Of a stretch of DNA of 64,000 bases, positions 893 to 62,918 are shown in pieces. The DNA comes from Nymphaea colorata (taxonomy: Eukaryota; Streptophyta; Magnoliopsida; Nymphaeales; Nymphaeaceae): contig NC_045138.2 of assembly GCF_008831285.2 (NCBI RefSeq), positions 2,458,143-2,522,142 of the forward strand. The letters are read 5' to 3'. The notes under the pieces are model-generated. The model saw only the letters and a list, made by a program, of their open reading frames with translations. It did not search any database and was not told the DNA's origin. Position 1 is the first letter of the stretch; each line of letters opens with the position of its first letter. The position numbers and the translations under genes were made by a program.

Positions 893-3639
<2,747 letters not shown>

Positions 3640-4799
3640 AGTGTATTACAGATTCTTTGTGAAGTGATTGGTTGTTCTAGTTTGTAATCTTTTTCTGTCA
3701 AAACCTGAGTTGCTATGGGGAAGTTGGGATCTATCGGTTCAAAGACCGGAGCCCAGTGTGGGAGTGGGTTAGGTCGTTATAATAGAGTCATTAGGTTCAT
3801 GTGAATTTGAGCACTATTACCTACAAATTTTTATGTTCTACTCTGTTTCAAGGAGATTCTAACACATGAAATGTTACAGATGAGTTCAGTTCCTATTACT
3901 GTGTAAGAAACTATGCTGTGTATAAAGCATTCTTGTCTCATTAATGGCTACTTAGTACCCATTTAAAACACACTTGGTACTACATGTATTATTTGCGTTT
4001 TCTTCATGTTGTTTGTTTTTCTTTCACATTTTTTTTCCCTAATTTTTAGTTATCAGATATACATTTTCACATTTTTTTTAGTTATTTTTTTAAAATCTCG
4101 CCAAGATTTTCCTGAAAAAAACTCACCTGCAGAATGCGAATTTTGTAATAGCCATATAAACCAAGCCAACCAAGAAGTGATTCTATAATTGCTAATAATC
4201 ATATCATTCACTATCATTCAAATCATGCCTTATTCTTGATTTACAAGTCCACGTTGTTGTCATCAATGTAATGTTCCTAAGGAAACTTTACTACTTTCAC
4301 TAACTAAAGCTCGAGATGAGTCCCATCAAGTGATCTGTTCTTCGAGGTCAAATAGTATTTTTCATGGATTTGAAGGTTACATCAATGGTGACATAACTGT
4401 GCAGGCGCTGATCACCTCCAGACACGTTGCTCAAGTGTAGCCACTTCTGAACTTGTGGATGCTAGACACATGATTTCATGGGTCATTCATCAGTGGTAAA
4501 AGTTTACAATATGGACAGTGACAAATATAAAATTCCGTTTCTGTCTTAGGCAGGATAGTGCATTATTGCGATTGCATCGTGACCAATATTGTCTTTTCAC
4601 ATTCAAACATCACAAAAGATGAACAGCGACCTGGCCACCATAAAGCCATCGTTTCCTACTATAAAAAAAATTGTAGGCCCTTGTTAGGGAATTCAAGAAA
4701 ATGGCGTTGGGTTGGGTTTTTTAGGCAAATACAGGCATATGTTAGAGATTTGATCAACTAAAGAAATTATACACTTGGTGTCATACTGTTAGGGCTGCA

Positions 4800-5521: not shown

Positions 5522-5932
5522 CTTCGAGCTTGACTCGGTAGATATGTGTTGAATTCGAGCTCGACTCGACTCGATTAAGCTCTGACAAACTTGTTTGAAT
5601 ATATGGCCTATTACTTTGCCATAAATCGAGCTCAAATCGATTAAGACTCGGCAAACTTGAATGAGTTTTTGTAAAACTTACATAAATAATTAACGTCAAT
5701 CTACCAATTTTTTAATTTAAAAAAAAAGTCAGATATTTTAAAAATCGCTACACATCATTTTCGAGTCGAGTCGAGCTTTAATAGTTCGCGTTCAGTGAAC
5801 TCCAACGCAACTCGATTATTTGAACGAGTGGACTCATGAACTCGAGCTCGACTCATTAAGCAAATGACTCGGCTCGAACTCATTCATGAGCTGAGCTTTA
5901 ACGAGTAGTCGAGCTCGCGTTGTTCACCCCTA
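5522..5932. mobile_element. hAT-like element, left end eroded (unit 1)
   Basis: The right terminus TTGTTCACCCCTA matches the inverted complement of the TAGGGGTGAACAA ends seen elsewhere in the window. The body is rich in GAGCTCGACTCG. The left boundary is not clear. A sister copy ends at 13289 in the next unit. Confidence 0.45.
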
Positions 5933-8329
5933 ACTAAGGGTCCATTCAAATCATACTTAGAACCTAGTTTTGTTTAATGTTTACATATGAATCCAAATCC
6001 AAAAAAATACTGCTACTTTGATCGAATTCCGATACAAAACAACCACATTTCTTGCTTGAATTGATTGAAAAAAGAATAAAAAATTCTGATACGTAATTGT
6101 TAAGATAACAAAACAAAGAAGAAGGCACCATTAAAGTAGTAGCTAGTATTTGATTGCAATTTATTAGAATACACGCTGGTTGAATTATGAACGATGGTTT
6201 CGAGTTCAACTGGTTTTCCACTTGATTTAAACACAAAAAAGAGAAGCCCAAACGGGTAACTTGTGTTTGATGGTTACATGGGAGGCATGGAAAACTTGTC
6301 TACAAAAGACAAATAATTCTAGCCCTTCAAACGCACCCTGAAACCCGTGAACCAACTTTCGTGAGAACTGCTTTTCATCAAACACACAATCAGGCCAAGC
6401 AAAAAAAAAAAAAAAAAAAAAATCAGAGGTTGTCTTTTCTTTTCTTTTTCAGGGGGCGTTGGGAGAGTTGAAAAGTTCAAATTGATGTGACAAGAAAGAC
6501 CGGTTCAAAGGCAAAGCAGTAAAATGAAAGAAAAAAAAAATTAAAATGGAAGAAAAAAAAACTGAAAATATCCATTTTTTTCAAAATGGCTAAAATACCC
6601 TAAAATGCCATGGAAACATCTTGTCAAAGGTGGTACCTACCGGGCACTGAGAGTATTCAGAAAACTGGTTCTAAATGTTCTCAATCTCTTCAATCACCAT
6701 TTTCGTGCAGAATAAATACACATGAACAAGCTCACAAGGGGTAACTTGTGTCTGATGGTTACGTAGAAGGCATGGAAAACTTGTCCACAAAAGACAAACG
6801 ATTCCAGCCCATCAAACACACCCGAAAAGCCTGAACCAGTTTTCATGAGAGTTGCTTTTGGAGACAACAAAGAGAGAAGACATACAATCTCTGAAGAAGG
6901 TCAAAACCCACACCCAACCCTTCATAGCCGAAGGTATGAGGGTCTGTGTTGGTGCTTCGAGATGTCGCCTTCACAAGTTGACGTGACATGGAAGATCAGC
7001 TCAAAGCAAAAGCAAAAGTGAAGACATTCTTGGCAGCCATTGATCCATCTCCAACCACCCTTAGCTTTTTTTAGTTATCAATAGCATTCGACAAAATGTC
7101 GTCCCAAATAATAAGACCAAGGTAATTTTTTCGGTGCACTTAAAATCAATTCAGGAACAGAATTGACCCATTTGTTGAATCGGCTGAGCTGCGTGTCCGG
7201 GTGAACCAGTAGTGAACCTTGACAAAAAAAAAAAGTTAATTTTTTAAATAAATAAAAAATGACATAAATATAATAAAAAGTTTAAGAAATAGACCTAAAA
7301 ATAGGTTGGAATGTGACAAGTGGTGCCCTTGAATGAGCCATGGAATTGAATAAATTCGCCAACCAATTCAATTTAAATTTTATGAAAACAGTGTTTTTTT
7401 TTGTTTTCCTTATGAAAACTATGCGTGGGTTGAGAGGAAGGCAGAATGTCCTTGTGTTATACCTAACCTTTTCACAAAACTTAAAAACATAAAATTTCAA
7501 GGAGCATCAATATGTAAATGAAAAAAAATGTTTATAAATATCAATATGAAAAATGAAAAGTTTTTTTATAGTCTGTAGCCATATATTTTTCAACAAAGCT
7601 TTGGAACTTGTGTTTAAGATGCTTTTGGGTGACTAAGGACTCGACTCGATACCTGGCTCGACTCCAGCTTAGGCTCGAGCTCGAAGAAAAAGCTTCGGGC
7701 CAGCACAGTGGACGTAATTAAGCTCAGTTTGGTTCGATAAGATTTTTTTAATATATATTTTATTGATTTTTTGTATATAATTATAATATTTTATTATGAT
7801 TAATTAAATTTATATATTATTTTATATTTAAAATATATTTTTTAATTTAATCAAGTCAGACTCGAACTCTAATTTTAAATTGAATGTCAGGCCGATCGTA
7901 TGCCCAAGTCCAAACTAGTTTTAGTTGACCGCCTTTTAATAAAAAAAAAAAAAAAGTACCTGAAACCAAACATGTCTCGTGACACAGTTACAAGAAATAT
8001 TAATTTTCTATAGAAATGAGTTCAGCGGTCTGTGGATCGAATGAACAGATTGAAGCCTACTTTGGCAATAATTTATCGATCAAATCTGATTCGAAGTTGG
8101 TGTTGGCTTGTGATGAACCGACGTGATCCACATAGCGTCACCCATGACACCAGCCAAGGAAAACTTTTCCATTCGTCGTCCTCGAGTGCTGGAAAAGTAT
8201 GAGCTGAAGCCGTGCTTTGACTCAAAACCGCAGAACGGAAGCTTACGGGATTACCGGAATCACCCTCCTCCGTCTGCTGAATTTCTTCGTCCTCTGCCTC
8301 TTCAATGTCCCAACTTTCTCGCGGTTTGC

Positions 8330-8337
8330 TTTAAAAG
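8330..8337 (+). promoter_or_regulatory. Degraded TATA box of OPR copy 2
   Basis: TTTAAAAG occupies the position of TATAAAAG in copy 4 (22876-22883), with matching flanks (GGTTTGCT before, GACTGCATTGC after). One A-to-T change at 8331 separates the two. Confidence 0.5.
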
Positions 8338-8430
8338 GACTGCATTGCCTCTCCACTGCCATCGGCATCTCTGGCAATTTGTAGTGAGAAAGTAGTGAGA
8401 GAAACGGGAGGGAGGAAGAGAGAGGCAGCC

Positions 8431-11215
<2,785 letters not shown>

Positions 11216-12231
11216 ACTGTATACAGATATTCTTTGTGAAGTGATTGGTTGTTCTGGTTTGTAATCTTTTTCTGTCAAAACCGGAGTTGCTATGGGGCAG
11301 TTGGGGTCTATCGGTTTAAATACCAGAGTCCAGTATGGGAGTGAGTTAGGTCTTTATAAAAGAGTCGTTAGGTTCATGTGAATTCGAGCACTATTATTTA
11401 CAAATTTTTATGTGCTACTCTGTTTCAAGGAGATTCCAACACATGAAATGTTACAGATGAGTTCAGTTCCTGCTACTGTGTAAGAAACCATGCTGTGTAT
11501 AAAGCATTCTTGTCTCATTAATGGCTACTCAGTACCCATTTAAAACACACTTGGTCGCCAACCACCACCAACTACATGTATTATTTGCGTTTTCTTCATG
11601 TTGTTTGTTTTTCTTTCACATTTTTTTTCTGATTTTTAGTTATCAGATATACATTTTAACATTTTTTTTAGTTATTTTTTTTAAAATCTCGCCAAGATTT
11701 TCCTGAAAAAAACTCACCTGCAGAATGCGAAATTTGTAATAGTGATATAAACGAAGCCAACCAAGAAGTGATTCTATAATTGCTAATAATCATATCATTC
11801 AAATCATGCCTTATTCTTGATTTACAAGTGATCTGTTCTTGGAGGTCAAATAGTATTTTTCATGGAGTTGAAGGTTACATCAATGGTAACATAACTGTGC
11901 AGGCGCTGATCATGATTTCATGGGTCATTCATCAGTGGTCTAAGTTACCAGTATGGACAGTGGCATATATAAAATTCCGTTTCTGTCTTAGGCAGGATAA
12001 TGCATTATTGCAATTGCATCGTGACCAATATTGTCTTTTCACATTCAAACATCACAAAAGATGAACAGCGACCTGGCCACCATAAAGCCATCGTTTCCTA
12101 CTATAAAAAAATTGTAGGCCCTTGTTAGGGAATTCAAGAAAATGGGGTTGGGTTTGGGTTTTTTAGGCAAATACAGGCATATGTTAGAGATTTTATCAAC
12201 TAAAGAAATTATAGTCTTGGTGTCATACTGT

Positions 12232-12584
12232 TAGGGCTGCATAAGCACAATAAATCAGCCAACTTAGCTCGACTCGAACTACTTAACCTTGACCCATTTG
12301 TAAGCGAGTCGTTATCGAGCTTAACTCAAAGCTCAACTAGTAAGTTCATTTTATTTAAGGTATTTTGTATTTTCAAATTCAAAAAAAAAAACATCAAGTC
12401 AAGGGAGGAATTGGTAAAAGAGTTTAAGTGAGTCAAGCTTGAGCAGGGCACTCAGTCTATCAAGTTCGAGCTCAGTCTATCAAGTTCGAGCTGACCTTGT
12501 ACAGCTCAACTCGCTCTCAAACCCAAAAAGTCGCGACGAGTTGACTGATCAGCTCGAGCTCCACTTGGCTCATGTACAGCCCTA
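12232..12584. mobile_element. hAT-like non-autonomous element (unit 2)
   Basis: Ends TAGGGCTGCATAA and ATGTACAGCCCTA are near inverted repeats; the interior is CTCGAGCT-rich. It is orthologous in position to the element at 4800-5163 and includes a duplicated segment, TCAGTCTATCAAGTTCGAGC, repeated in tandem at about 12450-12490. Confidence 0.55.
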
Positions 12585-12979
12585 ATTATTATCTCACCAA
12601 AAACTCGACTTAAGGTTCTTATTTGACCACTATAAAAAATTATAAGCCCTTGTTAGGAAATTAAAATGGAGTGCCCAGCAATTTTAATGCAAAGATATGT
12701 ATATGTTAGCAAATTATGAAATAAAAAATAGTCAATTTCCCTTTCAAGGTAAAGGTCCTTGTCATCCACAAATATCCTTCATTTCCAACCCCACTATTTC
12801 ATGTACATTTCATGTACATGAACTAGATATACAACTACATTTATTTGCTTGTAATCCAAGTCAAATTTGTTTGGTTGAACAGACCCCACTGACACACACA
12901 CAACACACACACAAATTGTCAAAGGGAGTGTGCGGCTGCCCTTGCTATTCGAAAGGTGACCAGCCACCTACCAGCCATC

Positions 12980-13289
12980 GCTTCGAGCACGACTTGATTA
13001 AGTCTTGACAAACTTGAATGAGCTTTTGTAAAAACTTACATAAATAATCAACGTCAATACACCGATTTTTTATTTAAAAAACGAGTTAGATATTTTAAAA
13101 ATCATTACACATCATTTTAGAGCTGAGTCGAGCTTTAACAATTCGAATTCAGTGAACACGAACTCAACTCGATTATTTGAACGAGTTGACTCATGAGCTC
13201 GAGCTCGACTCATTAAGCAAATGACTCGGTTCGAATTCGTTCATGAGCTGAGCTTTAACGAGTAGTCGAGCTCGCTTTGTTCACCCCTA
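12980..13289. mobile_element. hAT-like element, left end eroded (unit 2)
   Basis: Sister of the copy ending at 5932; right end TTTGTTCACCCCTA is preserved and the body has the same CTCGAGCTCGACTC motifs. The left end is not defined. Confidence 0.45.
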
Positions 13290-14614
13290 ACTAAGGGTCT
13301 ACTCAAATCATACTTAGAACTTAGTTTTGTTTAATGTTTACATACGGATCCCAATCCAAAAATTACTGCTACTTTGATCGAATTCAAATACAAAACAACT
13401 ACATTTCTTGCTTGAGTTGGTTGAAAAAAAGAAAAAAAAAATCTGATACGTAATTGTTAAGATAACAAAACAAAGAAGAAGGCACCATTAAAGTAGCTAG
13501 TATTTGCTATTAGAATACACGCTGGTTGAATTATGAACGATGGTTTCGAGTTCAACTAGTTTTCCACTTGATTTAAACACAAAAAAGAGAGGCCCAAACG
13601 GGTAACTTGTGTTTGATGGTTACATGGGAGGCATGGAAAACTTGTCCACAAGAGACAAATGCTTCTGGTCCATCAAACACACCCTGAAAACCGTGAACCA
13701 ACTTTCGTGAGAACTGCTTTTTCATCAAACACACAATCATGTCAAGCAACATAAAAAAAAAAAAAAAAAAAATCAGAGGTTGTCTTTTCTTTTCTTTTCC
13801 AAGGGCGTTGGGAGAATTGAAAAGTTGAGATTGATGTGACAAGAAAGACCAGTTCAAAGGCAAAGCAGTGGGAAGACTTCTCTTCTCTTCTTGGCAGCCA
13901 TTGATCCATCTCCAACCACCCTCGGCTGTTTTTGTCGTCGATGAAACAAAAGTATTCAAAAGCTTGGACAAAATGTCGCGACATGCTTTGACAAGTGATA
14001 AAAGCGAGGCAATTTCCATGCTATTAACATCAGTTCTGGAACGGAATTTGTCAAGCTGCTGATTTGTTGGATCGGAACATCTGCTTGCTTGGCAAAAAAA
14101 AAAAATTTACTTTTTTAAATAAAAAAACATAAAATTTAATAAAAATTTAACTAATAAATGAAAGAGAGAGGGGGGGAGGCGTAGCCAATAATAATGAATG
14201 AGAGAGAGATCTTGTCCAATAATCAGGAAGTTTTTGTTTTTCTTGGGAAAATCTTGAAGAATTCAAGAAACTTAAACAATTAAAACAAAGAACAACTAAA
14301 AAAAAATGAAGATTTGAGTTTGCAACTGATTTTCTTACAAGAATTAATAAAAGCTTGAAGTATTTTAATATCATGTTGAATGAAACCTGAAAAAATTTAA
14401 ATATGTTAAACAATTTTCCTTTTCCATTTTTCTTTGTTTGAGAGAGAGAGAGTATATAAGTAATGAGAAGAAAAAGAGAGTGAACTACACAATAGAGAGA
14501 ATCAGTGAATTAAATGTGTGAAAGAGAGAGACATTAACGGAATGGGAGAAAAAAATGGCGATTGATTTAAATGTGAGTGAGAGAGATGGTGAAAGAATTT
14601 AAAGGAGAGGGACG

Positions 14615-15421: not shown

Positions 15422-18199
<2,778 letters not shown>

Positions 18200-21100
18200 A
18201 TTGATTGGTTCTTCTGGTTCAGAGCTTTGTTGAAATCGAAACCGAAGCTGCTAAGGAGTGGTTTGGTATTCATTGAATCAAGGATCTGAGCTCATGTGAG
18301 TGACCATGGAGATATAAAAGAGTAATTCATTAGGTTCATGTGAATACGAGCACTGTTGCCTGCTAATTTTTTTATGTGCGACTCTGTTTCAAGGAGATTC
18401 CAACACAATGAAATGTTACAGATGAGTTCAGTGCCTGTTAGGTGTGTAAGAAACTATGCTGTGTATAAAGCATTCTTGTCTTATTAATGGCTACTCGGTG
18501 CCGATTTTAAGACACTTGGTCGCCAACCACCACCTGCTACACGCATTCATAAATGAAAAGAATGATAAAAAGTTGTATAATTAAACTTGGAAAAGGAGCC
18601 TTAAAAAGTCTGCAATTCTGTCCAGACAAAAAGCTTGAACCTGCAAGTTCTGGGTCACGAACACAGACAGCATACTAAAAAAAAATGAAAAAAACATGTT
18701 TTTTTTGGAAAAAAATGTCAAAATAAAAAGGGAAAAAACATGTATTAATCGTGTTTTATTTTTTTTGCAATTTTCATGTCTTTAAAATGTTTTAATTACC
18801 TGATATTTCATTTTCATATTTTATTGTAAGTTTTTTTTTAAATCTTGCTAAGATTTTTAACTTTGGTTATTACACATGAAAAAAAAAACCTCGCCATTTG
18901 GCACTCGAAAGCTAAATTTGTAACAGTGGCAATACTTGTGCAGGCGCAGATCAGCTGCAGACACGTGGCTCAACTGTAGCCACTCCTGAACTTGCGGATG
19001 CTATAGACATGACAAAAATTGTGAATTCATTTGTCAGAGCAAGTTCAGTTCATTCATCTTCAGTCTTGAAGTTTACCAGTATGGACAATGACAAATTTAA
19101 AATTCCGTTTCTATCTCAGGCAGGATAATGCATTACTGCATTTGCATAGTGACCAAAACTGTCTTTTCACATTTGAAAAATGACAAAAGATGAACCATGT
19201 ATATTGTGAACGAGAGTCGAGCTCGAGCTTAACTAAAAAAATTAAGCTGGAGCTTATAAAAGAGTTGGGTTCAAGTTACATGAACTCGACTCGATTAAAC
19301 TGGACCAAACTCATTTGATATGGTTTTCTTTTTGTAATTTTTAAATTTGAAACCAAGAAATGGGACGATGTATGTGACTACATTCGTTTGCTTGTAATCC
19401 AAGTGAAATTTGTTTGGTTGAGCAAAGCCCCACGCAAACAAAAACTAAAACAAGGGTTGTCTAGTCGCTACGCTACTTGAAAAGTGACCGGCCACCTACC
19501 AGCCATTGTCTCGAGCAGGTACGCTGGCACCCCTCTAGACCATATAGAATTTGTTTAGTTTCGAGCTTGTAGACCAACTATTGCTAGATCTTCACGAATT
19601 GAGATGGCCAATTGAAAACACTATATTAGTCTTCGAGTTCGTTGGTGCAACTTTTTGAGGTGGGGCCTGGTAGTCGGCTAGTTTTTATTTTGAGTTTTAC
19701 AGGTGTACACTTCCTATACAACAAATGGTCAATGATGTGCAAAGTGCAACAAAAATGGCTCTTCAAAACATTGGGATGTTTGGAAATAGTAACACTTTAT
19801 TATTAATTTGCCCCTAAAAATGAGGTAAGTTTATGGAAGAATGTGTTATAGAGTGCCATGAATGCACTACCGGAGCCTGAAATTTTTTCTGGTGGGTACA
19901 CTCATTCAATACCTTTAATTTTTTTGAGGCACTTACATGTATAACAATTAAATATATCAAAACATTAACATATATATTAAACTAATTTTGTGAGGTTGGT
20001 ACAGCAACTGCCCATACCAGCCACCATGTGGCTGCGCCACAGCATGAATGTACTCCAATGTCCTAAAGCAGATTCATAAGACAGTAACAATATCTTATTA
20101 TCGCCAAACGACCCTAAAAACAAGGAATAAGGTGACAACTTTTGCTCTTTCCCGGGTGGTGGTGAGTCTCCCCGAATCACCCAAAATTTAAAACACCATA
20201 TCAGTAGAATGTCAGATGCCATAAAGAGTCCGGACTAATCAAACTTAACTAAGTTTTATTTAACGTTTACATCTAGATCCAAATCCAAAAATACTGCTAT
20301 TTAGATGCCTACATCTCTTGCTTGAGTTGAGTGCAAAATGGTTTCTGACGATGCCTAACAGCCAAGTTGACATGACAAAGAAGAAGACGCCATTAAAATA
20401 GTATTTGATGCTGGCAACGTATTAGAATACACGCTGGTTAAATTATTCCAGATTGTTTCGAGTTCAACTTGTTTTCCACTTTGATTTAAAACATGAAAAG
20501 GCGCACAAAGGGTAACTTGTGTTCCATGGTTACATGGAAGACATGGAAAACTTGTCCACAAAAGACAAACGATTCCAGCCCATCAAACACACCCAAAAAT
20601 CTTGAATCAACTTTCATGAGAGCTGCTTTTCAAGACAACAAAGAGAGGAGACATACACTCCACCACCATTGTTTGAAGAAAGTCGAAACCCCCACCCAAT
20701 CACTCTTCGAGATGTCACCCCTGCCACGCTTCAACTTGTGTGTCGGTGGCCTTTGTTCACAGCACAGAGAGTTGGCTCTCGAGGAATCAAAGTAGAACCC
20801 GGTCGCCTGCTAGCCCTTATTCAATCCCTTTGAACTAGGGGTGAACAAAGAGTCGAGCTACTCGAGCTTGACTCATAAAAGCTCGGCTAACGAGTTCGAG
20901 TTGAGTCATTTGCTTAACCAGTCGAACTCGAGTTCATGAGTCAACTCGTTTAAATAATCGAGTTGAATTCAAACTCAACACATAACTATCGAGTCGAGCT
21001 CGAGCCTTAATCGAGTTTGTCGAGCCTTAATCAAGTCGATATAACCATGAATTTCAATTCTATTCAAATGAGTTTGTCGAGTCTTAATTGAGTCGAGATC

Positions 21101-22875
21101 GATCTCAATAAGTAACGATGAATATCAATTCTATTCAAACAAGTTTGTCGAGCCTTAATCGAGTCATGCTTGAGCTAACACATAATGATGAATATCAATT
21201 CTATTCAAACAAGTTTGTCGAGCCTTAATCGAGTCAAGTTCGAGCTCAACACGTAACTGCCGAGTCGAGCTCGAGGTGCTTCCATCAAGCTATCCTCGAG
21301 GTCGAGCCGAGTTAAGTTCGAGGTTTCATTAATTGAGCCGAGCTTGAACTGATTGAACTCGGGCTCAAATTGATGTGACATGAAAAATCAGCTGAAAGCC
21401 AAAGCAAAAGTGAAGACATTCTTGGCAGCCATTGATCCATCTCCAACCACCCTTAGCTTTTTTTAGTTATCAATAGCATTCGACAAAATGTCGTCCCAAA
21501 TAATAAGACCAAGGTAACTTTTTGGGTGCACTTAAAATCAATTCAGGAACAGAATTGACCCATTGAATCGGCTGATCTGCGTGTCCGGGTGAACCAGTAG
21601 TGAACCTTGACAAAAAAAAAGTTAATTTTTTAAATAAATAAAAAATGACATATAAATAACAAAAAGTTTAAGAAATAGACCTAAAAATAGGTTGGAATGT
21701 GACAAGGTGTGCCCTTGAATGAGCCATAGAATTAAATAAATTTTCCAACCAATTCAATTTGAATTTTATGAAAACAATGTTTTTTTTTTATGAAAATTAA
21801 GTGTGGGTTGAGAGGGAGGCAGAATGTCCTTGTGTTATACCCAAGTTTTTCACAAACTTAAAAATATAAAATTTTAAGGAGCACCAATATGTAAATGAAA
21901 AAAAATGTTCATAAATATCAATATGAAAAATGAAAAGATTTTTATAGTCTGTATGGGCCGTTGCCCATATATAACTCACACCTACCTTTTATAAATATCA
22001 ATATAAAGATTTTTAGAGTCTGTACCTGCTTTGCTTTTGTTTTTGTGTGATGCTTTGGGGTGACTAATGTTGGTACCTGATAGGTGGTTGGACTCGAGCC
22101 CAAGCTCAAACTAAAAAAAAAACAGAGTTTCGGGTCAGCCCAAGTAAGTCCGATTAAGTTCGGTTCAGTTGGATAAGATTTTTTTAATATATATTTTATT
22201 GTTTTTTATATATAAATATAATATTTTATTATGATTAATTATATTTATATATTATTTTATGTTTAAAATATATATTTTTTAATTTAATTAAACCGGACTG
22301 AGGTTGGATTTTAAGTAAGTTGAGATCCAAACTGTTTCGGATGTGGGGCCGACCCTAAGCCAAGAGTCGAAACTAGTTTTAGTTGACCGCCCTTTAATAA
22401 AAAAAATACCGAAACCAAACATGGCTCGTGACACAGTTACAAGAAATATTAATTTTCTATGCAGATGAGTTGAGCAATCTGGTGATCGAATGAACAGATT
22501 GAAGCCTACTCTTACAATATTTTATGGATCAAATCTGAGTCGAAGTTGGTGTTGGCTTGTGATGAACCGACGTGATGTCACCCATGACACCAGCCAAGGA
22601 AAACTTTTCCATCCGTCATCCTCAACGAGTGCTGGAAAAGTATGAGCTCACGCCGTGCTTTGACTCAAAACCGCAGAAAATAGCCTGAAGCTTATGGGAT
22701 TACCTGAAACACCATCCTCCGTCTGCTGAATTTCTTCGTCCTCTGCCTCTTCGCGGCAAAAATGGAAAAGTGGTGTTAACGTGGAGCACGCCGGCGGCCG
22801 ACTGGCGCATAATTTTCCTGGAGGGACCGGCGGCAATCTCCGGTCATTAAATGTCCCAACTTTCTCACGGTTTGC
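18200..22875. other. Intergenic DNA between OPR copies 3 and 4
   Basis: 18200 to about 20750 is a diverged form of the 3' flank of copies 1 and 2 (shared patches near 18950, 19500, 20400 and 20540). A CTCGAG-rich element fills 20836-21373. From about 21390 the sequence is the type-B 5' flank shared with copy 2. About 22753-22849 is a GC-richer 97-bp stretch upstream of the TATA box that copy 2 lacks. No gene is supported. Confidence 0.55.
20836..21373. mobile_element. hAT-like element, right terminus missing
   Basis: The left end TAGGGGTGAACAAAGAG is intact. The body is colinear with the complete element at 41617-42131, including an internal roughly 65-bp motif (TTTGTCGAGCCTTAATCGAG ... ATGAATATCAATTCTATTC) repeated about four times. 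The expected right end TGTTCACCC is absent; the sequence passes directly into OPR flank DNA. Confidence 0.55.
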
Positions 22876-22883
22876 TATAAAAG
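22876..22883 (+). promoter_or_regulatory. TATA box of OPR copy 4
   Basis: TATAAAAG, 94 bp upstream of the ATG; it is the intact version of the degraded box of copy 2. Confidence 0.6.
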
Positions 22884-22976
22884 GACTGCATTGCTTCTCC
22901 GCTGCCATCCGCGTCTCTGGCAATTTGTAGTGAGAAAGTAGTGAGAGAAACGGGAGGGAGGAAGAGAGAGGTAGCC

Positions 22977-25422
<2,446 letters not shown>

Positions 25423-39500: not shown

Positions 39501-42295
39501 CTTTGGCGCTCCCCATGATAAAATTATAAAACAGCGGCCCGCCATGAGACTGAATCATCAGTAGATGTGAAAAGATTATAAGAATATATACTTGTATGTA
39601 GCTCTTTTCCTTTCTGCTCATGATTGAACAAGTTAAACCAAGTCAACATGGTGTTCTACACCTGCATTGGAATTTGAGAAACTTCGTCTTGCTTGTTTGT
39701 AGGAGGACGTTCTCAAGGCAACACATGGTTTTCTTCAAGGGAAGGTAAGCCACTGTACTACCCAACTCTTTATCACCCCAAAACTGACCTTTCCGATTCG
39801 CATTCTTCTGTATCGGCCTTAAATACCGCTTTTAAAATTTTTTAAATTAATGTCATAATACTTTTCACTTATATTGGCCAATTCTTTGAGGGGGCTACGT
39901 GAATATCTCCCCGCATATCACATCTGCAGGTACCGATACGCTGCGTATCGGTTAACACATACTGCTGATATTGATAAAACTGGGACTCTCATGGGGGCTT
40001 TTGTGCCATAGGTCCAGAGAATATCTAAAGCTCTAAGCATTGATGATTGTTAGATTTTTTCATGTTTTAATCATCAAGAAAACAGAGAGTCCACGGTGAA
40101 CTTTTTTTATTTGAGAGGGCTCTGTAGATTCAGTCAATTACAACCACGCTTTTGAACCCATGCAATAAGATTATGCCTGTTTGGCTGTTCCTGGAGCAGG
40201 CAGAACAAGAAGTGCTGGATGTTCTGTTGTTTCTGGAACAGGTGGAACATGCTGTCCTCCCAGAAACAAACATAACTCGAAGAACAGTGGGATGTCAATG
40301 AATGTGATTTGAATTGGACATGCTCTTAACTATGTCCGCACTTTTGAACATTCGCATATTGGGGATTCAAATTCGGATTTATACGAATCCAAATATGAAA
40401 TCTGATTTCACAATTTGAATCCGGTCCGTATCCGATCATTGAATCCAATTTTGAACAAATCTAGCTAATTTTTAAAATGTAAGGGTATTAAATATAAGAT
40501 ATTTGTTTAAAACTAAACCGGATCTGAATCTAAAACCAATCGGATGTCATTTCTTATATTTGAATCTGATGTCATTTCTTAATTGGACGTTAATTTTTTT
40601 TTCATATTCGATTTTTTTCAGAATGGTTCGATTGGATATGTGAACATCCCTAAATGCCAACATTCACAGAGTTACTTCACCTGTCCTTGCTCCAGCAGTC
40701 GACATCTTACCGTTGGATGCTGGAGAAGGTTGGGGGAAGTATCTTTTGTGGTGTTCGCGTCCGTCTTGATGGAATGGATTTGTAGCGTTTCGTTCCAACA
40801 CTGGAACAACGAACCAAACACACCCTAAAAGGTTCTTTGCTCCAACCTTTTTCCGAAAACAATGGTTTTAGTATTTTTTTTATAATTTTTTAACAATTGA
40901 ATATCTATTTTGGATTTGACCAATGTTTCTGTAAGAAAATTCATAGGAATGGATTTTGATTTTTTTTTTTTTAAACCTTCCGATCGAGAAAAACCAACGT
41001 CCCATTTTAAATGTTTTAGCGATAGAAAACGTTACTAACGGAGACCCGAGAACAACGTTGGTCCCAATGGTATTAATGATGGAAAGATATGAGGAAAAGC
41101 TTGTGCGTCTTTTAGAATGTTTGGCTTCACTTCAGCTTCATTCTCTAGGAAAACAAAGATCGTGTTTGCCATACCTGGGAAAGTTGAAGTCAAAACTCCA
41201 ACTTTGAGGGGAAAAGCTGGTAATGAATTTCCTGGTGCTGTCAATTGGTGTGCCCTTCTTTCTCAGTCAAACAAGCTTGGCAGGGCCGCAAACAAGTTGG
41301 GGGATACACTAAAGAGGCTGAAGTCTCTTCCTTTTTCCTACTGCTTTCAGGATCTAGGGCTACTTCAGGACATGGGTGGAGAGCATGACACATATCAACT
41401 AGAATGTCGTCTACCTATTATTTGCAGTCCAAAAGAATAGTACCCACGAAAATCGAACTGACCACCAGACTTTTGTTGGTCCACCAGTCCGACTAGTTAT
41501 GTTATGTCCCTCAGAGCAAAGAGGAAGGAGGCAAGGGGACATTAGTTATCATTTTGCTGACATGGCTTGTAGCTCAAAGAAGGACACCACTAGTACTTTA
41601 ACTTACTGGTCTTGATTAGGGGTGAACAATGAGTTGAGCTACTTGAACTCGACTAGTTAAAGCTCGGTCTGATGAACGAGTTCGTGCCGAGTCATTTGCT
41701 TAATGAGTCGAGCTCGAATTCATGAGTCAACTCGTTCAAATAATCGAGTTGAGTTTGAGCTCAACACGTAACTGCTGAGTCGAGCTCGATTCTTAATCGA
41801 GTTTGTCGAGCCTTAATCAAGTTGATATATTCAAGCGAGTTTTAAGAGTTTGTCTCGAGTCGAGTTTGAGCTCAACATGTAAATATGAATATCAACTCTA
41901 TTCAAACAAGTTTGTCGAGCCTTAATCGAGTAGAGCTTTAGCTCAACACGTAATGATGAATATCAATTCTATTCAAACGAGTTTGTCGAGCCTTAATCGA
42001 ATCGAGTTCAACACGTAACTGTCGAGTCGAGCTCGAGCTGCTTCCGTCATGCTATTTTAGAGAGGTTTCATTAGCCAAGCCGAGCTCGAACTGACTGAAC
42101 TAGGGCTCGACTCGGCTCGTGTTCACCCATAGTCTTGATGGGATGTTTTTGCAGTTTAGTTTAAGAAAGAGATAACTAATTAAGTGTTTGTGTCTTTTGC
42201 AGCTGGATGAGCAAAGTGGGTTCTACGATGTGCCCAACATGTTTGAAGGCATTCCATATCCATTAACCATTCCTAACGAAATATTTCAAATGTAA
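36595..42295 (+). CDS. AGL12: MIKC-type MADS-box transcription factor, AGL12/XAL1 clade (seven exons)
   Basis: Nuclear DNA-binding protein of the AGL12 (XAANTAL1) clade, which in Arabidopsis affects root meristem activity and flowering. Exons are 36595-36776, 36980-37061, 37230-37291, 37841-37940, 38119-38160, 39703-39744 and 42203-42295, giving 200 aa. Exons 3-6 (62, 100, 42, 42 bp) have the classic MIKC sizes. MADS domain is residues 1-60 ([20 protein letters not shown] ... GKLYELATK), followed by the I region 61-88, K domain about 89-165 ([32 protein letters not shown]), and a C-terminal tail ending [36 protein letters not shown] and the PLT...EIFQ end are AGL12 hallmarks. Intron 6 is 2.46 kb and full of short transposons; intron 5 holds a perfect palindrome. 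No defect is seen in the coding sequence. Confidence 0.93.
39297..39352. repeat. Perfect 26-bp inverted repeat with a 4-bp loop (AGL12 intron 5)
   Basis: Arms 39297-39322 and 39327-39352 are exact reverse complements around the loop CACA. Each arm contains AAGAACAGAGTATAAAAAAA or its complement. In the pre-mRNA this would form a strong hairpin. Confidence 0.85.
40175..40825. mobile_element. Composite inverted-repeat element in AGL12 intron 6, with a second element nested in it
   Basis: The left end GCCTGTTTGGCTGTTCCTGG and right end CTGGAACAACGAACCAAACA form imperfect inverted repeats. Inside, 40288-40652 has its own ends (GGGATGTCAATG and TGAACATCCCTA) and an ATTCAAAT/GGATTT-rich body like 33027-33370. 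No coding capacity is seen. Confidence 0.45.
41617..42131. mobile_element. Complete hAT-like non-autonomous element in AGL12 intron 6
   Basis: 515 bp. Ends TAGGGGTGAACA and TGTTCACCCATA are 12-bp inverted repeats with one mismatch. The 8-bp sequence GTCTTGAT is present exactly on both sides (41609-41616 and 42132-42139), the size expected of hAT transposition. The interior has CTCGAGCT motifs and repeats of TTTGTCGAGCCTTAATCGAG. Only 71 bp separates it from AGL12 exon 7. Confidence 0.85.
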
Positions 42296-44172: not shown

Positions 44173-44541
44173 TGTTAACAGAAACACCAAGAAGGCTCTC
44201 AATGTGTATTACTTGGGAGATGAAAAGTCATATCTCTTGAGAGATGAAAAGTCATGTCTGTTGGAAGATGAAAAGTCATGTCCCTTAGGGAATGAAAAGA
44301 CATGTCTCTTGAGAGATGAAAAGTCATGTCTCTTGAGGGATGAAAAGTCATGTATGTTGAAAGATGAAAAGTCATGTCTCTTGGGAACTAGAGACCCCTT
44401 ATGTAACTCCTCTATATAAATGAGTCTCTCCACCAAAAGAAGGCAAGCAAGAAATGATAGACTAGTGGACGTAGGCCTATTGGCTGAACCACTTTAAAAA
44501 TTTTTGTCCCTTTAATTATTTCTTCATTTTGATTTCTTACA
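44173..44541 (+). repeat. 5' LTR of copia element
   Basis: 369 bp, TG...CA. Contains seven tandem 24-bp units (44217-44384) and a TATA box TATATAAA at 44413-44420, the likely promoter of the element. Differs from the 3' LTR only at 44425 (T against C at 48999). Confidence 0.93.
44217..44384 (+). repeat. Seven 24-bp tandem repeats in the 5' LTR U3 region
   Basis: Consensus GAGATGAAAAGTCATGTCTC plus TTGA, seven contiguous copies with few substitutions, ending 28 bp before the LTR TATA box. The same array is at 48791-48958 in the 3' LTR. The position fits a transcriptional enhancer array, by analogy with repeated LTR boxes in other plant copia elements (inference). Confidence 0.85.
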
Positions 44542-44553
44542 TGGTATCAGAGC
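44542..44553 (+). other. Primer-binding site (initiator tRNA-Met type)
   Basis: TGGTATCAGAGC directly abuts the 5' LTR and is the usual plant copia site complementary to initiator methionine tRNA. Confidence 0.9.
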
Positions 44554-44621
44554 CACTGGTCCTTGTTAGTGTTGCTGCTAGATCCTAAGGATTACATCTT
44601 TTGTTGCCGCGTTTCATTCTC

Positions 44622-47600
44622 ATGGCAAATCAAGAAGCATCATCAAATACAAGAGTCAACTCTGATACGGGTATGAATTTTCTTGCTTCTCCTCTTCAGT
44701 GCCCAAGCAATTTACAGCATTTCCTCACCATCAAGTTAAATGCTGAAAATTATCTTATTTGGGAATCTCAATTCACTTCAATTTTGATCTCATTTGGTCT
44801 TATGGGATATATTGATGGAAGCAAACCTGCTCCATCAATGTTTAGAAGTGGAACAACTGAAATTAGTTCAGAATATATTGAATGGTTGAGAAATGATCAA
44901 CTACTTTTGAGTTGGATTAAGTCCTCTCTATCTGAAGCAATACATACCCAAATTATTGGTTTAAAAACCTCTCTAGAGGTTTGGAGCGCTCTTAGGCAGT
45001 CATATGCCACTCAATCTAGGGCTCGAATAATGCAGTTAAAATCACAGTTTCAAGATTTGAAAAAGGGGTCTAGTTCTATGGATGTTTATATAAACAAAGC
45101 AAAATCTATTGCTCATCAATTAGCCATTGCATCCAAACCTGTTGATGAAGATGATCTTGTTCTTCAAATTCTTAGAGGATTGCCAAGTGAATATCTTGCT
45201 TTTAAAGTCAGTATGGAAACTCGAAAGGACCCTGTCTCTTTGAACGAACTTCATGGGCTTCTACTCATACAAGAAGCCAACTTAAAAGAAGATGATTCTC
45301 AAACTTTTGAATCTATTATGCCGGCTGCGAATATTGTCTCAAAACAAGTTTACAACAACCAAACCAACTACAGAGGTCGTGGTAGAAACAACTATCAATC
45401 TAGAGGAGGAGTCCGGAAAAGTGATCAATACAAAGGTGATCGTTTTGTGTGCCAAATATGTGGAAAAGTTGGTCATATTGCAAAGTTTTGTTGGTCATAT
45501 ACTAACTTGCTTAAAGAAAAAGAGACAACGCCTCCTCAAGCATATCATGCAGTTTCTTCTAGCACTCTGAATCAAGACATTGGAGATGACAATTGGTATC
45601 CTGACTCCGGTGCGACTCATCACATCACCAATGATATCAATAACTTGTCCATTCATGCCAAATACAAAGGTGGAGATGCAGTAAAAATTGGAGATGGATC
45701 AGGTTTGAGAATTTTTCATATTGGTTCTTCAAAGACATCTCAAAATTTAGTTTTAAATGATCTCCTTCATGTGCCCAAAATAACAAGAAACTTGTTATCT
45801 GTACAACGTTTTTCTAAGGATAATGGAGTCTATTTTGAGTTTCATCCTAATATGTGCTATGTTAAGCAGCAGGAAACGGGAAAAATTCTTCATCAAGGAA
45901 CGAGCAGTGATGGGCTATATAAGATAGACCTTAGTAGCAAAAAAAAGGAAGTACAACTTGGAGAAAGACATACTATTGGGCAGTGGCACAAAAGACTTGG
46001 TCACCCTTCATTTTCCATTGTTAAGAAGGTTTTGAACAAGTATGATTTGTCTTATTATGATGATTGTTTAAATTATTTGTGTGAAGCTTGTCAAAAGGCT
46101 AAGAGTCATAAACTTCCATTTAATGCTATTTCAAGTAAGGTGAAACGCCCGCTTGAACTCATTTATTCTGATGTATGGGGTCCAGCCCCAGTGGAGAGTG
46201 TGAATGGTTTTAAGTACTATGTGATTTTTATGGATGCGTTTTCAAGATATACTTGGATTTATTTGATGAAAAAAAAATCAGATGTCAGTCATGTTTTTAA
46301 AGCTTTCAAGGCACTTTCTGAAAATCTCACTGGGCACAAGATAAAATATTTTCACTCAGATTGGAGAGGAGAATTTCAAGGGCTTCAATCATATCTTGTC
46401 GATAATGGGATTGGACATAGAATATCATGTCCTCATACCCCTGAACAAAATGGAGCAGCTGAAAGGAGACATAAACATATTGTTGAAACAGGTTTATCTC
46501 TAATGGCAGAAGGTAATATTCCTAAGAACTTTTGGTCATATGCTTTTTGTACTGCTGTATATTTGATTAACCGAATGCCAACCAAGATTCTTGATTTTGC
46601 TTCTCCTTTGGAAAAATTGTTCAAAGAGAAACCTGACTATGGCTTCCTCAAAATCTTTGGATGTGAATGCTTTCCTTGTTTAAGAGCTTATCAGAAAAAT
46701 AAATTAGATTACCGTTCTGAAAGATGTGTTTTCTTGGGTTATGCTCCTCAACATAAAGGATATTATTGTTTGGGTGTACGAACCCGTAAAATCTATATTT
46801 CGAGACATGTCCAATTTAATGAGAAAAAATTTCCTTTTATTGATACTCAAGAAACTAGAACTCAAGATCTAGAAACTCAAAACCAAGCCATAATTTTAAC
46901 CTCCCCTCATGAATATCAGTTCTCAAACCCTACAATACCATCATCTAGTACCTCCACAACTTCAGAGGAACCCTTACTTCAGTCTGAAACAAATAGTGAA
47001 TCTCAACCTGAAACTCTTGAAAATGAGGAGCCTACCCAATCCAATGAAAATGAACCAAATCAAGAACGAGTCCATCCTATGACTACTAGATCTCAAGTGG
47101 GAATCTTCAAACCTAATTCTAAATACAATGAGTTCCATACATATTTTTCTAGCAAACACTCTCTTCCAAGAGCTCTTGTCTCCACTCTTCTTGAAGACAA
47201 AGAACCCTCAAGTTTTAAGGAAGCATATGAAGATGAAAATTGGAGGAAGGCCATGCAAGAAGAATATGATGCTCTTATTCGAAACAATACTTGGAAACTT
47301 GTTCCAAAGAAAGAAGCCAAACACATTGTAGGATATAAATGGGTGTTCAAAATCAAGCGAAAGGCAGATGGATCATTGGAAAGATACAAGGCTAGACTCG
47401 TCGCCAAGGGATATAGTCAAAAAGAAGGAATTGACTATACTGAAACCTTCAGTCCTGTTGTGAAGCCTACTATAATTCGAACAGTATTGACTATTTCTAT
47501 TAGTCACAAATGGAAAATACATCAGCTGGATATTCAAAATGCATTCTTATATGGATCTATTTCAGAAGAAGTTTATATGGCTCAACCACCCGGATTTCAA

Positions 47601-47717
47601 AATCATTCTTTCCCAAATCATGTATGCAAGCTTGAACGTGCTTTATATGGTTTAAAACAGGCTCCTAGGGCATGGTTTGCCCGTCTTAGTCTATTCCTCC
47701 AAAATCTTGGTTTTTAA
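44622..47717 (+). CDS. Copia gag-pol polyprotein, N-terminal part up to the reverse transcriptase frameshift
   Basis: The open frame runs from 44601; the ATG at 44622 (MANQEASS) is the more likely start, the first ATG being seven codons upstream. Numbering from 44601: gag region about residues 25-270, CCHC zinc knuckle CQICGKVGHIAKFC at 284-297, protease WYPDSGATHH with the catalytic D335, integrase zinc region (HKRLGH ... CEACQKAK), integrase core acidic residues D524 (YSDVWGP), D587 (HSDWRGEF) and about E621 (NGAAERRH), and the first half of reverse transcriptase (LDIQNAFLYG). The frame stops at 47715-47717, immediately after a T5 run (47711-47715). Domains resume in the next frame, so this is a one-base insertion relative to an intact element. 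Confidence 0.9.
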   Translation: MANQEASSNTRVNSDTGMNFLASPLQCPSNLQHFLTIKLNAENYLIWESQFTSILISFGLMGYIDGSKPAPSMFRSGTTEISSEYIEWLRNDQLLLSWIKSSLSEAIHTQIIGLKTSLEVWSALRQSYATQSRARIMQLKSQFQDLKKGSSSMDVYINKAKSIAHQLAIASKPVDEDDLVLQILRGLPSEYLAFKVSMETRKDPVSLNELHGLLLIQEANLKEDDSQTFESIMPAANIVSKQVYNNQTNYRGRGRNNYQSRGGVRKSDQYKGDRFVCQICGKVGHIAKFCWSYTNLLKEKETTPPQAYHAVSSSTLNQDIGDDNWYPDSGATHHITNDINNLSIHAKYKGGDAVKIGDGSGLRIFHIGSSKTSQNLVLNDLLHVPKITRNLLSVQRFSKDNGVYFEFHPNMCYVKQQETGKILHQGTSSDGLYKIDLSSKKKEVQLGERHTIGQWHKRLGHPSFSIVKKVLNKYDLSYYDDCLNYLCEACQKAKSHKLPFNAISSKVKRPLELIYSDVWGPAPVESVNGFKYYVIFMDAFSRYTWIYLMKKKSDVSHVFKAFKALSENLTGHKIKYFHSDWRGEFQGLQSYLVDNGIGHRISCPHTPEQNGAAERRHKHIVETGLSLMAEGNIPKNFWSYAFCTAVYLINRMPTKILDFASPLEKLFKEKPDYGFLKIFGCECFPCLRAYQKNKLDYRSERCVFLGYAPQHKGYYCLGVRTRKIYISRHVQFNEKKFPFIDTQETRTQDLETQNQAIILTSPHEYQFSNPTIPSSSTSTTSEEPLLQSETNSESQPETLENEEPTQSNENEPNQERVHPMTTRSQVGIFKPNSKYNEFHTYFSSKHSLPRALVSTLLEDKEPSSFKEAYEDENWRKAMQEEYDALIRNNTWKLVPKKEAKHIVGYKWVFKIKRKADGSLERYKARLVAKGYSQKEGIDYTETFSPVVKPTIIRTVLTISISHKWKIHQLDIQNAFLYGSISEEVYMAQPPGFQNHSFPNHVCKLERALYGLKQAPRAWFARLSLFLQNLGF

Positions 47718-48993
47718 AGGGGCTCAAACAGATTCATCTCTTTTTATTTTGAGAAAAAGAGAAATACTTCTATATGTTTTGGTATATGTGGACGACATGA
47801 TCATAACAGGAAGCTCACCAGAATATATTCATAAAATTATTTGTCAATTCAAAAGTGAGTTCGCCATTAAAGATTTGGGTGAGCTTCATTTTTTTTTGGG
47901 CATAGAAGCAAAAAGAATTGACAATAAGCTAATATTATCTCAAAGGAAGTACATATTCGAGCTTCTCAAAAGAACAAATATGCTTGGAGCTAAGGGAGTT
48001 TCAACTCCCATGGCATGCTCCCCTGCTTTATCTGCTCAAACTGGATCAAATTTTTATGATCCAACTCTTTATCGCAGCATTGTTGGCGCTCTTCAATACT
48101 CTACTGTGACTCGTCCAGACATCTCTTATGCTGTCAACAAAGTTTGTCAATACATGCATCATCCTACTGATGCCCATTGGGATGCCGTAAAGAGAATCCT
48201 AAGATATTTGAAGCACACTATTGATTATGGCCTTGTTATTAGACCTAGTTCAGTTTTAAATGTTAATGCTTACAGTGATGCAGATTGGGCAGGATGTCTT
48301 GATGATAGACGCTCTACAGGTGGATATGCAGTGTTTATTGGATCCAATCTAGTTTCATGGAGTGCTAAAAAGCAGTCAGTTGTCTCTCGTTCTAGCACTG
48401 AGGCTGAGTATCGATCCATTGCCAACACTACTGCTGAAATCATGTGGTTACAATTTTTATTAAAAGAACTTTGTGTTGATCAATCACAACCTCCCATATT
48501 ATGGTGCGACAACATCGGCGCAGCCTATCTTGCAGCTCATCCTGTGTATCATAGTCGCAGCAAACACATAGAGATTGACCTTCATTTTGTTCGAGAAAAA
48601 TTGGCTAAAGGAGATTTGAAAATTCAGTACATCTCTTCCAAAGATCAGGTTGCTGATATTTTAACTAAGCCACTTAGTAAACAGCACCATTATCAAATAA
48701 TTAACAAGCTCAATCTCATTGTTGGAGCATTGAGCTTGCGGGGGGATGTTAACAGAAACACCAAGAAGGCTCTCAATGTGTATTACTTGGGAGATGAAAA
48801 GTCATATCTCTTGAGAGATGAAAAGTCATGTCTGTTGGAAGATGAAAAGTCATGTCCCTTAGGGAATGAAAAGACATGTCTCTTGAGAGATGAAAAGTCA
48901 TGTCTCTTGAGGGATGAAAAGTCATGTATGTTGAAAGATGAAAAGTCATGTCTCTTGGGAACTAGAGACCCCTTATGTAACTCCTCTATATAA
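47713..48993 (+). CDS. Copia pol, C-terminal part (reverse transcriptase remainder and RNase H), shifted frame
   Basis: An open frame (from 47677 in this phase) picks up reverse transcriptase directly after the break: YVDDMIITGS with the catalytic DD pair, FAIKDLGELHFFLGIE, then RNase H (YSDADWAGC, SRSSTEAEYR, LWCDNIGA, HIEIDLHFVREK). It runs past the purine tract and ends 247 bp inside the 3' LTR, so its last 80 or so codons translate LTR sequence, including the 24-bp repeats as 8-residue DEKSCLLR-like units. Without the frame break it would be continuous with the upstream part. Confidence 0.85.
   Translation, partial: FKGAQTDSSLFILRKREILLYVLVYVDDMIITGSSPEYIHKIICQFKSEFAIKDLGELHFFLGIEAKRIDNKLILSQRKYIFELLKRTNMLGAKGVSTPMACSPALSAQTGSNFYDPTLYRSIVGALQYSTVTRPDISYAVNKVCQYMHHPTDAHWDAVKRILRYLKHTIDYGLVIRPSSVLNVNAYSDADWAGCLDDRRSTGGYAVFIGSNLVSWSAKKQSVVSRSSTEAEYRSIANTTAEIMWLQFLLKELCVDQSQPPILWCDNIGAAYLAAHPVYHSRSKHIEIDLHFVREKLAKGDLKIQYISSKDQVADILTKPLSKQHHYQIINKLNLIVGALSLRGDVNRNTKKALNVYYLGDEKSYLLRDEKSCLLEDEKSCPLGNEKTCLLRDEKSCLLRDEKSCMLKDEKSCLLGTRDPLCNSSI
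48738..48746 (+). other. Polypurine tract of copia element
   Basis: A purine-rich stretch (GCGGGGGGA) immediately before the 3' LTR, the plus-strand priming site for reverse transcription. Confidence 0.75.
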
Positions 48994-49115
48994 ATGAGCC
49001 TCTCCACCAAAAGAAGGCAAGCAAGAAATGATAGACTAGTGGACGTAGGCCTATTGGCTGAACCACTTTAAAAATTTTTGTCCCTTTAATTATTTCTTCA
49101 TTTTGATTTCTTACA
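48747..49115 (+). repeat. 3' LTR of copia element
   Basis: 369 bp, matching the 5' LTR except at 48999. Includes the seven 24-bp repeats at 48791-48958. Followed by the GTGAC target duplicate. Confidence 0.93.
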
Positions 49116-54886: not shown

Positions 54887-55004
54887 CTACCCGAGCGTGC
54901 AAATCTGAGAAAGCAAGCCCACCCTCCTTCCTTCTTCGCTTACTTCTTCAGTTTCTCTGTTGCTACTTTTATTGTTTTCTTTCTGCGCTACCTGCTTGCT
55001 AGAG

Positions 55005-58000: not shown

Positions 58001-58405
58001 ACCTTAACCTCTTTCAAACAAAATTACAAAAAAACATGTAAATTTTAAAAAAAATATTTGTTTTATATAAAAATTTTAAAAAAATAATATTTTAACTTTG
58101 TTAAAATTTAAAAACTTTAATTCGTAAAAAATTTATTGTCTAGATTACTTTTCAATGAAATTTGAGTTGTGGACTGCACTGCAGGGTTCAGCGTGGTGGA
58201 TCGTGGGTGCTGCGGGGTGGGGAGGAACGCGGGGCAGCTGACGTGCCTCCCGTTCCAGACACCCTGCACGGAGAGGGAGTCCTACGTGTTCTGGGACGCC
58301 TTCCACCCCACGGAACGCATCAACGTTCTGCTCGCCCGGATGTCCTTCACCGGTCCCGCCTCCATCGCCTACCCCATCAACATCCAACAGCTTGCCTTCC
58401 TTTGA
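55005..58405 (+). CDS. GDSL esterase/lipase, gene A (five exons)
   Basis: Secreted plant SGNH/GDSL hydrolase, of the group containing Arabidopsis At1g29670-like enzymes; hydrolyses ester or lipid substrates, in vivo substrate unknown. Exons are 55005-55320, 55959-56080, 56196-56438, 57204-57453 and 58185-58405, in phase, giving 383 aa. Seen: hydrophobic N-terminal signal peptide ([19 protein letters not shown]), block [15 protein letters not shown] with catalytic S62, block [11 protein letters not shown], block [14 protein letters not shown] with oxyanion N192, and block [10 protein letters not shown] with D348 and H351. A second ATG at 55017 could also serve as start; the open frame extends to 54960 but that codon is TTG. 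The intron 3 acceptor is preceded by a 15-G run in place of a pyrimidine tract. Gene B lies tail to tail 570 bp downstream. Confidence 0.9.
57181..57195 (+). repeat. 15-G homopolymer just upstream of the exon 4 acceptor of GDSL gene A
   Basis: GGGGT then 15 G, then CAAAACAG at the splice site. The run ends 8 bp before exon 4. Confidence 0.9.
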
Positions 58406-58524
58406 TCAACTGCACAACAGTCCCCAAATGCCAATACCCCATCTTGTTCCAGAACGACTCTCTCTTCTTCTAACATGTATGTCTCAGACATCCTCGTGTT
58501 AGAATGACCAATGGCATGCATGAT

Positions 58525-58555
<31 letters not shown>

Positions 58556-58975: not shown

Positions 58976-62848
<3,873 letters not shown>

Positions 62849-62910
62849 GACTGTGTGGGCAGAACAAAGGGACAGTGATACTGATAGGAATGAGTTTTTG
62901 ATCGAAGAGA

Positions 62911-62918
62911 ATTTATAG
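62911..62918 (-). promoter_or_regulatory. Possible TATA box of GDSL gene B
   Basis: On the - strand the sequence reads CTATAAAT about 63 bp upstream of the ATG at 62848. A second candidate (CTATTTATGAG) lies near 62985-62995, giving a longer leader. Confidence 0.35.

Follow-up and report, generated by a model that had tools for sequence, protein, structure and literature searches.

Copy 2 of a tandem OPR array in Nymphaea colorata is very probably a hybrid gene, joined out of register inside intron 1

Tandem genes that resemble one another invite the question of whether each has a single history. Here we ask how one gene of an OPR array came to resemble one neighbour in its promoter and first exon and another in the remainder, and by what kind of event its two parts were joined. 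The window, by which we mean the whole 64,000-nucleotide stretch of DNA analysed, contains four tandem OPR genes, all on the + strand; every one has five exons separated by GT-AG introns, and its frame is open:

893-3639, + strand: copy 1, 367 aa
8431-11215, + strand: copy 2, 363 aa
15422-18199, + strand: copy 3, 367 aa
22977-25422, + strand: copy 4, 371 aa

Any two copies differ by 22 to 47 residues over 362-366 codons. We refer to copies 1 and 3 as type A and to copy 4 as type B. In the two of the four copies that were scanned, PF00724 (Oxidored_FMN) extends over nearly the full length (copy 2, 285.6 bits; copy 1, 290.7 bits; cut-off 27), and among the best 60 of 99 matches to solved structures copy 2 scores 615.9 bits with Arabidopsis OPR1, 585.3 with tomato OPR1 and 430.7 with the best OPR3. 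Judged by these similarities, copy 2 is an OPR1-type (group I) 12-oxophytodienoate reductase / old yellow enzyme, nearer to the OPR1 than to the OPR3 structures, and copies 1, 3 and 4 can be put in the same OPR class by their similarity. The H-x-x-H-x-Y motif, which we take to be the active-site motif of OPR enzymes, reads HGAHGY in copies 1, 2 and 4 and HGANGY in copy 3, as in Arabidopsis OPR1. The copy 3 version sits in exon 5 (17613-18199), and the whole copy 3 protein departs at 18 alignment columns from the state common to the other three copies.

The window also holds an apparently recent retrotransposon at 44173-49115, Ty1/copia-like as judged from its translation, with end repeats of 369 bp (44173-44541 and 48747-49115; 99.7% identical) and two long frames that overlap (44589-47717 and 47656-48993). 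Inside the end repeats lie short tandem units, DEKSCLL-type when translated (44212-44387 and 48786-48961). Reading frames at 54909-62962, on both strands, appear GDSL-lipase-like from their translation.

A sequence-only reading of this DNA had proposed that copy 2 is chimeric, with a junction in intron 1, and this is borne out by a sharp switch in identity and by the quartet sites. The gene is laid out as follows:

8431-8498, + strand: exon 1, copy-4 type, 22 codons and 2 bases
8499-9355, + strand: intron 1, chimeric, 857 bp, GT...AG
8697-8859, + strand: shared intron block, first version, copy-4 type, 2/163 differences from copy 4
8856-8859, + strand: junction, TCTC common to both parents
9145-9355, + strand: shared intron block, second version, A-type, reaching exon 2
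9356-11215, + strand: exons 2-5 (9356-9496, 9661-9791, 10133-10294 and 10626-11215) and introns 2-4, A-type, with an intact 363-aa reading frame
11216-13869, + strand: 3' flank, A-type, copy-1-like, with gaps

BLAST within the window places copy 2 8301-8859 at 97.3% identity to copy 4 22847-23405 over 559 bp, and 6974-8303 at 82.3% to 21366-22752 with gaps counted; in gap-free 100-bp windows the latter match reaches 91-98%, except for 65-83% at 7590-7890 and 86% at 8000-8099. To the right of the join, 8856-11829 matches copy 1 1299-4248 at 92.8%. The non-parental register is at chance identity on both sides: 32 of 100 bases agree with copy 1, in copy-1 register, to the left, and 25 of 100 with copy 4, in copy-4 register, to the right. 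Quartet sites, scored as (1,2)/(3,4) : (1,3)/(2,4) : (1,4)/(2,3), switch across the same point. They stand at 0:47:0 between the TATA box and early intron 1 and at 0:17:0 for the first block, and all 16 from the TATA box to the end of exon 1 pair (2,4)/(1,3); on the other side the second block gives 6:1:0, the interval from intron 2 to exon 4 gives 13:1:1 and exon 5 gives 14:2:1, with too few sites to decide in exon 2 (1:0:2) and intron 4 (2:1:1). On the strength of these alignments, copy 2 is very probably a real hybrid gene, with promoter and exon 1 from one paralogue and the remainder from another.

Some of the proposed limits have to be moved. The copy-4-type stretch, put at 6970-8855, does match copy 4 but starts at 6720 and ends at 8859, and the copy-1-type stretch, given as about 8860 to 11300, continues with gaps to about 13869. 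Of the sequence TCTC(A/G)AACA said to be shared at the join, the TCTC holds, while the next base is at odds with copy 1 (A vs G), the A being that of copy 3. A MaxChi recombination test, run on a forced collinear alignment, detects a switch (none of 5000 permutations reaches it) but places it at 9209-9232 instead of 8856. The position is an effect of the alignment, since forcing collinearity shifts copy 4 between the two blocks of copy 2, from the first to the second between 23330 and 23335.

The register of the join says most about its origin. Copy 4 23405 is homologous to copy 1 1719, yet in copy 2 it is joined to the equivalent of 1299, so that the intron 1 join lies about 420 bp out of register. 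This explains why the intron carries a block twice, as had been claimed (one version at about 8697-8859, the other at about 9145-9279; GGTTGGAAAAGCTTGAAAAC occurs near 8788 and again near 9208), and it favours end-joining over an in-register crossover. The intron is 857 bp long, compared with 823 bp in copy 1, 824 bp in copy 3 and 423 bp in copy 4. The longest identical run between the two parental introns, 22 bp, falls in the shared block, and the join lies elsewhere, using 4 bp. Of random joins, 2.3% share 4 or more bases, or 0.6% when each possible joint is counted once; the overlap by itself argues weakly for end-joining, and a longer homology may have been lost through later change. Taken together, the out-of-register position and the 4-bp overlap favour end-joining without proving it.

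Copy 1 aligns with copy 3 straight through 1299 (38/60 in the window just before 1287, then 49/60 and 53/60), and copy 4 aligns with copy 3 through 23405 (50/60, 53/60 and 56/60). Copies 1, 3 and 4 thus keep the unjoined arrangement at the equivalent points, and copy 2 alone has the derived joint. As expected of a chimera, its parts have different closest paralogues, its joint can be defined, and the parental arrangement is retained elsewhere.

Based on these observations, we consider it likely that copy 2 arose by illegitimate, microhomology-assisted end-joining of two genes, one of type B and ancestral to copy 4, the other of type A and ancestral to copy 1. Breakage close to the end of type-B intron 1 (the equivalent of 23405) would have left an end that was joined via TCTC to the middle of type-A intron 1, at the equivalent of 1299, a position 420 bp out of register. 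Both ends lay in one phase-compatible intron, and for this reason the five exons and the open frame would have been retained while the gene exchanged its promoter, its 5' UTR and codons 1 to 22. The array would later have been edited again, by a second join upstream (6520/filler/6720), by A-type copies converting each other and, probably, by homogenisation of copies 2 and 4 in exon 1 and intron 1 up to the junction.

The second join can be read directly at the far end of the type-B piece:

6244-6520, + strand: end of copy 1's A-type 3' flank, with repeat 's' and the truncated start of distal element 'D'
6521-6719, no strand assigned: filler at the left junction, 199 bp
6720-8300, + strand: copy-4-type upstream region, with repeat 's', distal element 'D' and promoter

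The flanks behind copies 1 and 2 run in step up to 6520/13869: 6244-6520 is colinear with 13597-13869, behind copy 2, and 5626-6520 matches 12983-13869 at 90.3%, the match stopping at 6520. After the 199 bp of filler, for which the best 8 matches in the window are, itself apart, short (47 bp at E 8e-4, or weaker), sequence from between copies 3 and 4 (20491) starts at 6720. On alignment, then, the type-B piece is one that spans 6720-8859. Repeat 's' is present twice, at 6244-6375 and 6728-6859 (83.5% alike), and element 'D' is truncated at 6478-6520 and complete from 6974 onwards, occurring also at 13830-14156 between copies 2 and 3. Within the upstream region, 56 bp of copy 2 (6918-6973) correspond to 666 bp of copy 4 (20700-21365, mostly repeat). 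Of these 666 bp, 20836-21365 resembles 41617-42107 at 78.7%, and inverted pieces lie at 5808-5932 and 13160-13289.

One exchange alone does not explain the left junction. This pattern would result from a crossover or fusing deletion if an intervening A-type gene was then lost, and likewise if a 2.1-kb piece was copied into an A-type copy. The latter route, a templated insertion or gene conversion in which a copied type-B piece (6720-8859) replaced the 5' end of an older A-type copy and was sealed at both ends without homology in register, is a variant of the chimera reading that leads to the same product by another path. We regard it as possible, though clearly the less probable route. It needs no additional gene deletion and accounts for out-of-register joins that bound the type-B piece on both sides; ordinary conversion, however, requires homology at the ends.

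Divergence bears on both routes. Between copies 2 and 4, K in the promoter is 0.063 (6974-7589), 0.25 (7590-7890) and 0.086 (7891-8300), falling to 0.047 from the TATA box to exon 1 and 0.014 in intron 1. Between copies 2 and 1 it is 0.081 and 0.093 in intron 1, 0.006 and 0.012 in introns 2 and 3, 0.107 in intron 4, and 0.079, 0.028, 0.122 and 0.081 along the 3' flank. The type-B part of intron 1 (5/357) is less diverged than A-side intron 1 (39/479; p 6e-6), as a templated insertion would have it, and also less than the promoter (68/992; p 3e-5). The promoter, at 6.9% without 7590-7890, is not clearly below the A-side non-coding sequence (287/3379 without introns 2-3, 8.5%; Fisher p 0.10), which speaks against that route; 7590-7890 alone has 62 differences in 295 sites, and with it the promoter stands at 130/1287. 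Because type-B intron 1 is so much less diverged than either the promoter or the A part, no single date fits without later conversion. There was probably one old event, after which copies 2 and 4 would have converted each other in exon 1 and intron 1, conversion being unable to pass the junction. Constraint is a less likely cause of the low intron 1 divergence, as early intron 1 differs by 0.31 between copies 1 and 3.

An ordinary unequal crossover between copies 4 and 1, homologous and in register, would be at home among same-strand tandem paralogues with signs of conversion, and type A before the chimera with type B behind it is the order that such an exchange produces. Its joint should lie inside aligned homologous sequence, and instead it is found 420 bp off and away from the 22-bp longest identical run, in introns whose alignable parts are about 70-80% alike. 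A single in-register crossover is disfavoured by this register, and we hold the whole explanation to be improbable.

Similar tandem genes are also prone to misjoining during assembly, by which reads of copies 4 and 1 could have been fused. Against copy 4, however, copy 2 differs at 14 of 556 bases in 8304-8859, by a 97-bp indel and by the 666/56-bp difference, and against copy 1, over 8856-11829, by 7.2%, with values of about 0-1% confined to the surroundings of 9600-10007. Neither half is therefore a mere copy of its present neighbour, and an assembly error is very improbable. Least credible of all is that copy 2 kept an ancestral double-block intron of which copies 1/3 and 4 lost different parts: the doubled block by itself would fit, but differential loss is rejected by the switch in quartet pairing across the join and by the copy 2-copy 4 distance, which is 0.014-0.086 to the left (0.25 in 7590-7890) and 0.20-0.47 in the later intron segments to the right.

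With end-joining as the preferred origin, the A-type side still has a mixed history. That the right part derives purely from copy 1 was partly right: 14 of the 17 quartet sites in exon 5 pair (1,2)/(3,4), but copy-3-like patches lie near the join. There the distances of copy 2 to copy 1 (0.081) and copy 3 (0.092) are almost equal; the window 8851-8950 is copy-1-like by 11 sites to 1, and 8951-9250 leans to copy 3 with 19 sites against 11 copy-1-like. Up to 11215, 137 informative sites are copy-1-like and 58 copy-3-like, and their clustering (3/5000 permutations as extreme) rejects a single clean copy 1 origin. One tract stands out:

9600-10007, + strand: probable tract of conversion between copies 1 and 2, running from intron 2 into intron 3, with 23 agreeing variable sites in an unbroken run

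Among copies 1-3, no permutation of 5000 reaches this run, nor a copies 1-3 run of 9 at 10442-10464, and 12/5000 reach a copies 2-3 run of 7 at 10272-10345. With copy 4 included, over 9145-11215, we find a copies 1-2 run of 110 (0/5000), a run of 24 at 9965-10004 for copies 1-3 and another for copies 2-3 (9/5000 each) and a copies 3-4 run of 8 at 9310-9339 (10/5000), with no signal in that interval for copies 1-4 (3369/5000) or 2-4 (1006/5000). As the permutations treat exon and intron sites alike, uneven constraint can inflate such runs. These tests covered the right side; for the left, the case for probable conversion between copies 2 and 4 comes from divergence.

The claim that a type-B promoter now drives a type-A enzyme holds for the layout and fails where it implies identity with the promoter of copy 4. 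Upstream of the TATA box, copy 1 has nothing beyond short, weak matches to type B, and copy 3 has in common with type B only the distal element, which is about 65-78% alike and lies >1 kb away from the start. Since the A-type copies share so little with type B there, the promoter swap is real as architecture, and the type-B part also provides the first 22 codons. Two differences from copy 4 lie close to the start. The TATA box is TTTAAAAG in copy 2 and TATAAAAG in copies 1, 3 and 4:

8329-8338, + strand: TATA region, CTTTAAAAGG in copy 2 and CTATAAAAGG in copies 1, 3 and 4, with a substitution at 8331

Beside it, copy 2 is without 97 bp that copy 4 has (22752-22848), a difference that may be a loss in copy 2 or a gain in copy 4. 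AACGTG, described elsewhere as a MYC2-binding T/G-box (PMC6021540), occurs once in the scanned upstream region of copy 4, at 22778 and inside these 97 bp, and was not found on either strand of the scanned upstream regions of copies 1-3. About 0.8 occurrences are expected by chance in 1.6 kb (an estimate), and so nothing is built on the motif. We predict that copy 2 is transcribed from the type-B-derived promoter, and that the differing TATA box and the lack of the 97 bp weaken or retune that promoter. It is a tentative and rather unlikely further step that loss of the TATA consensus and of the 97-bp proximal piece would give this A-type OPR an expression pattern found in neither parent, and thereby a neofunctionalised OPR via promoter swap.

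The protein is intact in frame, with a copy 1-copy 2 dN/dS of 0.24. Eight residues are unique to copy 2, and at five of them (columns 16, 28, 213, 346 and 370) the state in the other three copies is also that of both Arabidopsis OPR1 and tomato OPR1; N213K and P346H, in alignment columns, replace residues kept in the other copies and in 5/5 aligned structures. Because these changes fall on conserved residues, the predicted enzyme could be impaired.

Copy 2 can be viewed as a clean example of promoter exchange between tandem enzyme genes, in which the intron location lets the join tolerate misalignment and signs of conversion remain visible on both sides. Whole-gene OPR trees from such arrays mix histories, and the array offers natural combinations of promoter and coding sequence that can be used for expression comparison. 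A study of the plant OPR family describes expansion chiefly through tandem duplication, with intron positions conserved and indels inside the introns (PMC2688005), and the array here is likewise tandem, with conserved intron positions and intron indels. The terms gene conversion, chimer-, recombination and crossing are absent from the main text of that paper. Searches of the open-access OPR literature, one spelling per search, found no report on chimeric tandem genes, unequal crossing over or gene conversion, with reports in print not excluded.

Comparable genes are known outside this family. The human CYP11B1/CYP11B2 chimera of glucocorticoid-remediable aldosteronism (PMC8750845) places the promoter and 5' part of one paralogue on the coding part of the other, as in copy 2, with fusion at intron 2 in 16/36 samples. 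Its crossovers lie in high-similarity stretches, whereas the copy 2 join is out of register; its product came under a different hormone's control, which illustrates the possible effect of a promoter swap, whereas any such change in copy 2 is a prediction.

The closest precedent is the chimeric Myb gene p2/p1 of the maize P1-wr cluster, which has nearly the same anatomy and proposed origin (PMC2686159). There too, the 5' part and regulatory region come from one tandem paralogue and the 3' part from another, and the ends lie at different positions of one intron, giving imperfect direct repeats; the authors ascribe the join to non-homologous end-joining and describe conversion elsewhere in the array. 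The maize intron join has 50 bp of filler and repeats of >2 kb, whereas that of copy 2 has no filler and 4 shared bp. In copy 2 the filler belongs to the second join, and the product is an OPR instead of a Myb protein. By analogy with these systems, a misaligned intron join is an already known way for tandem genes to change, of which copy 2 is a further case.
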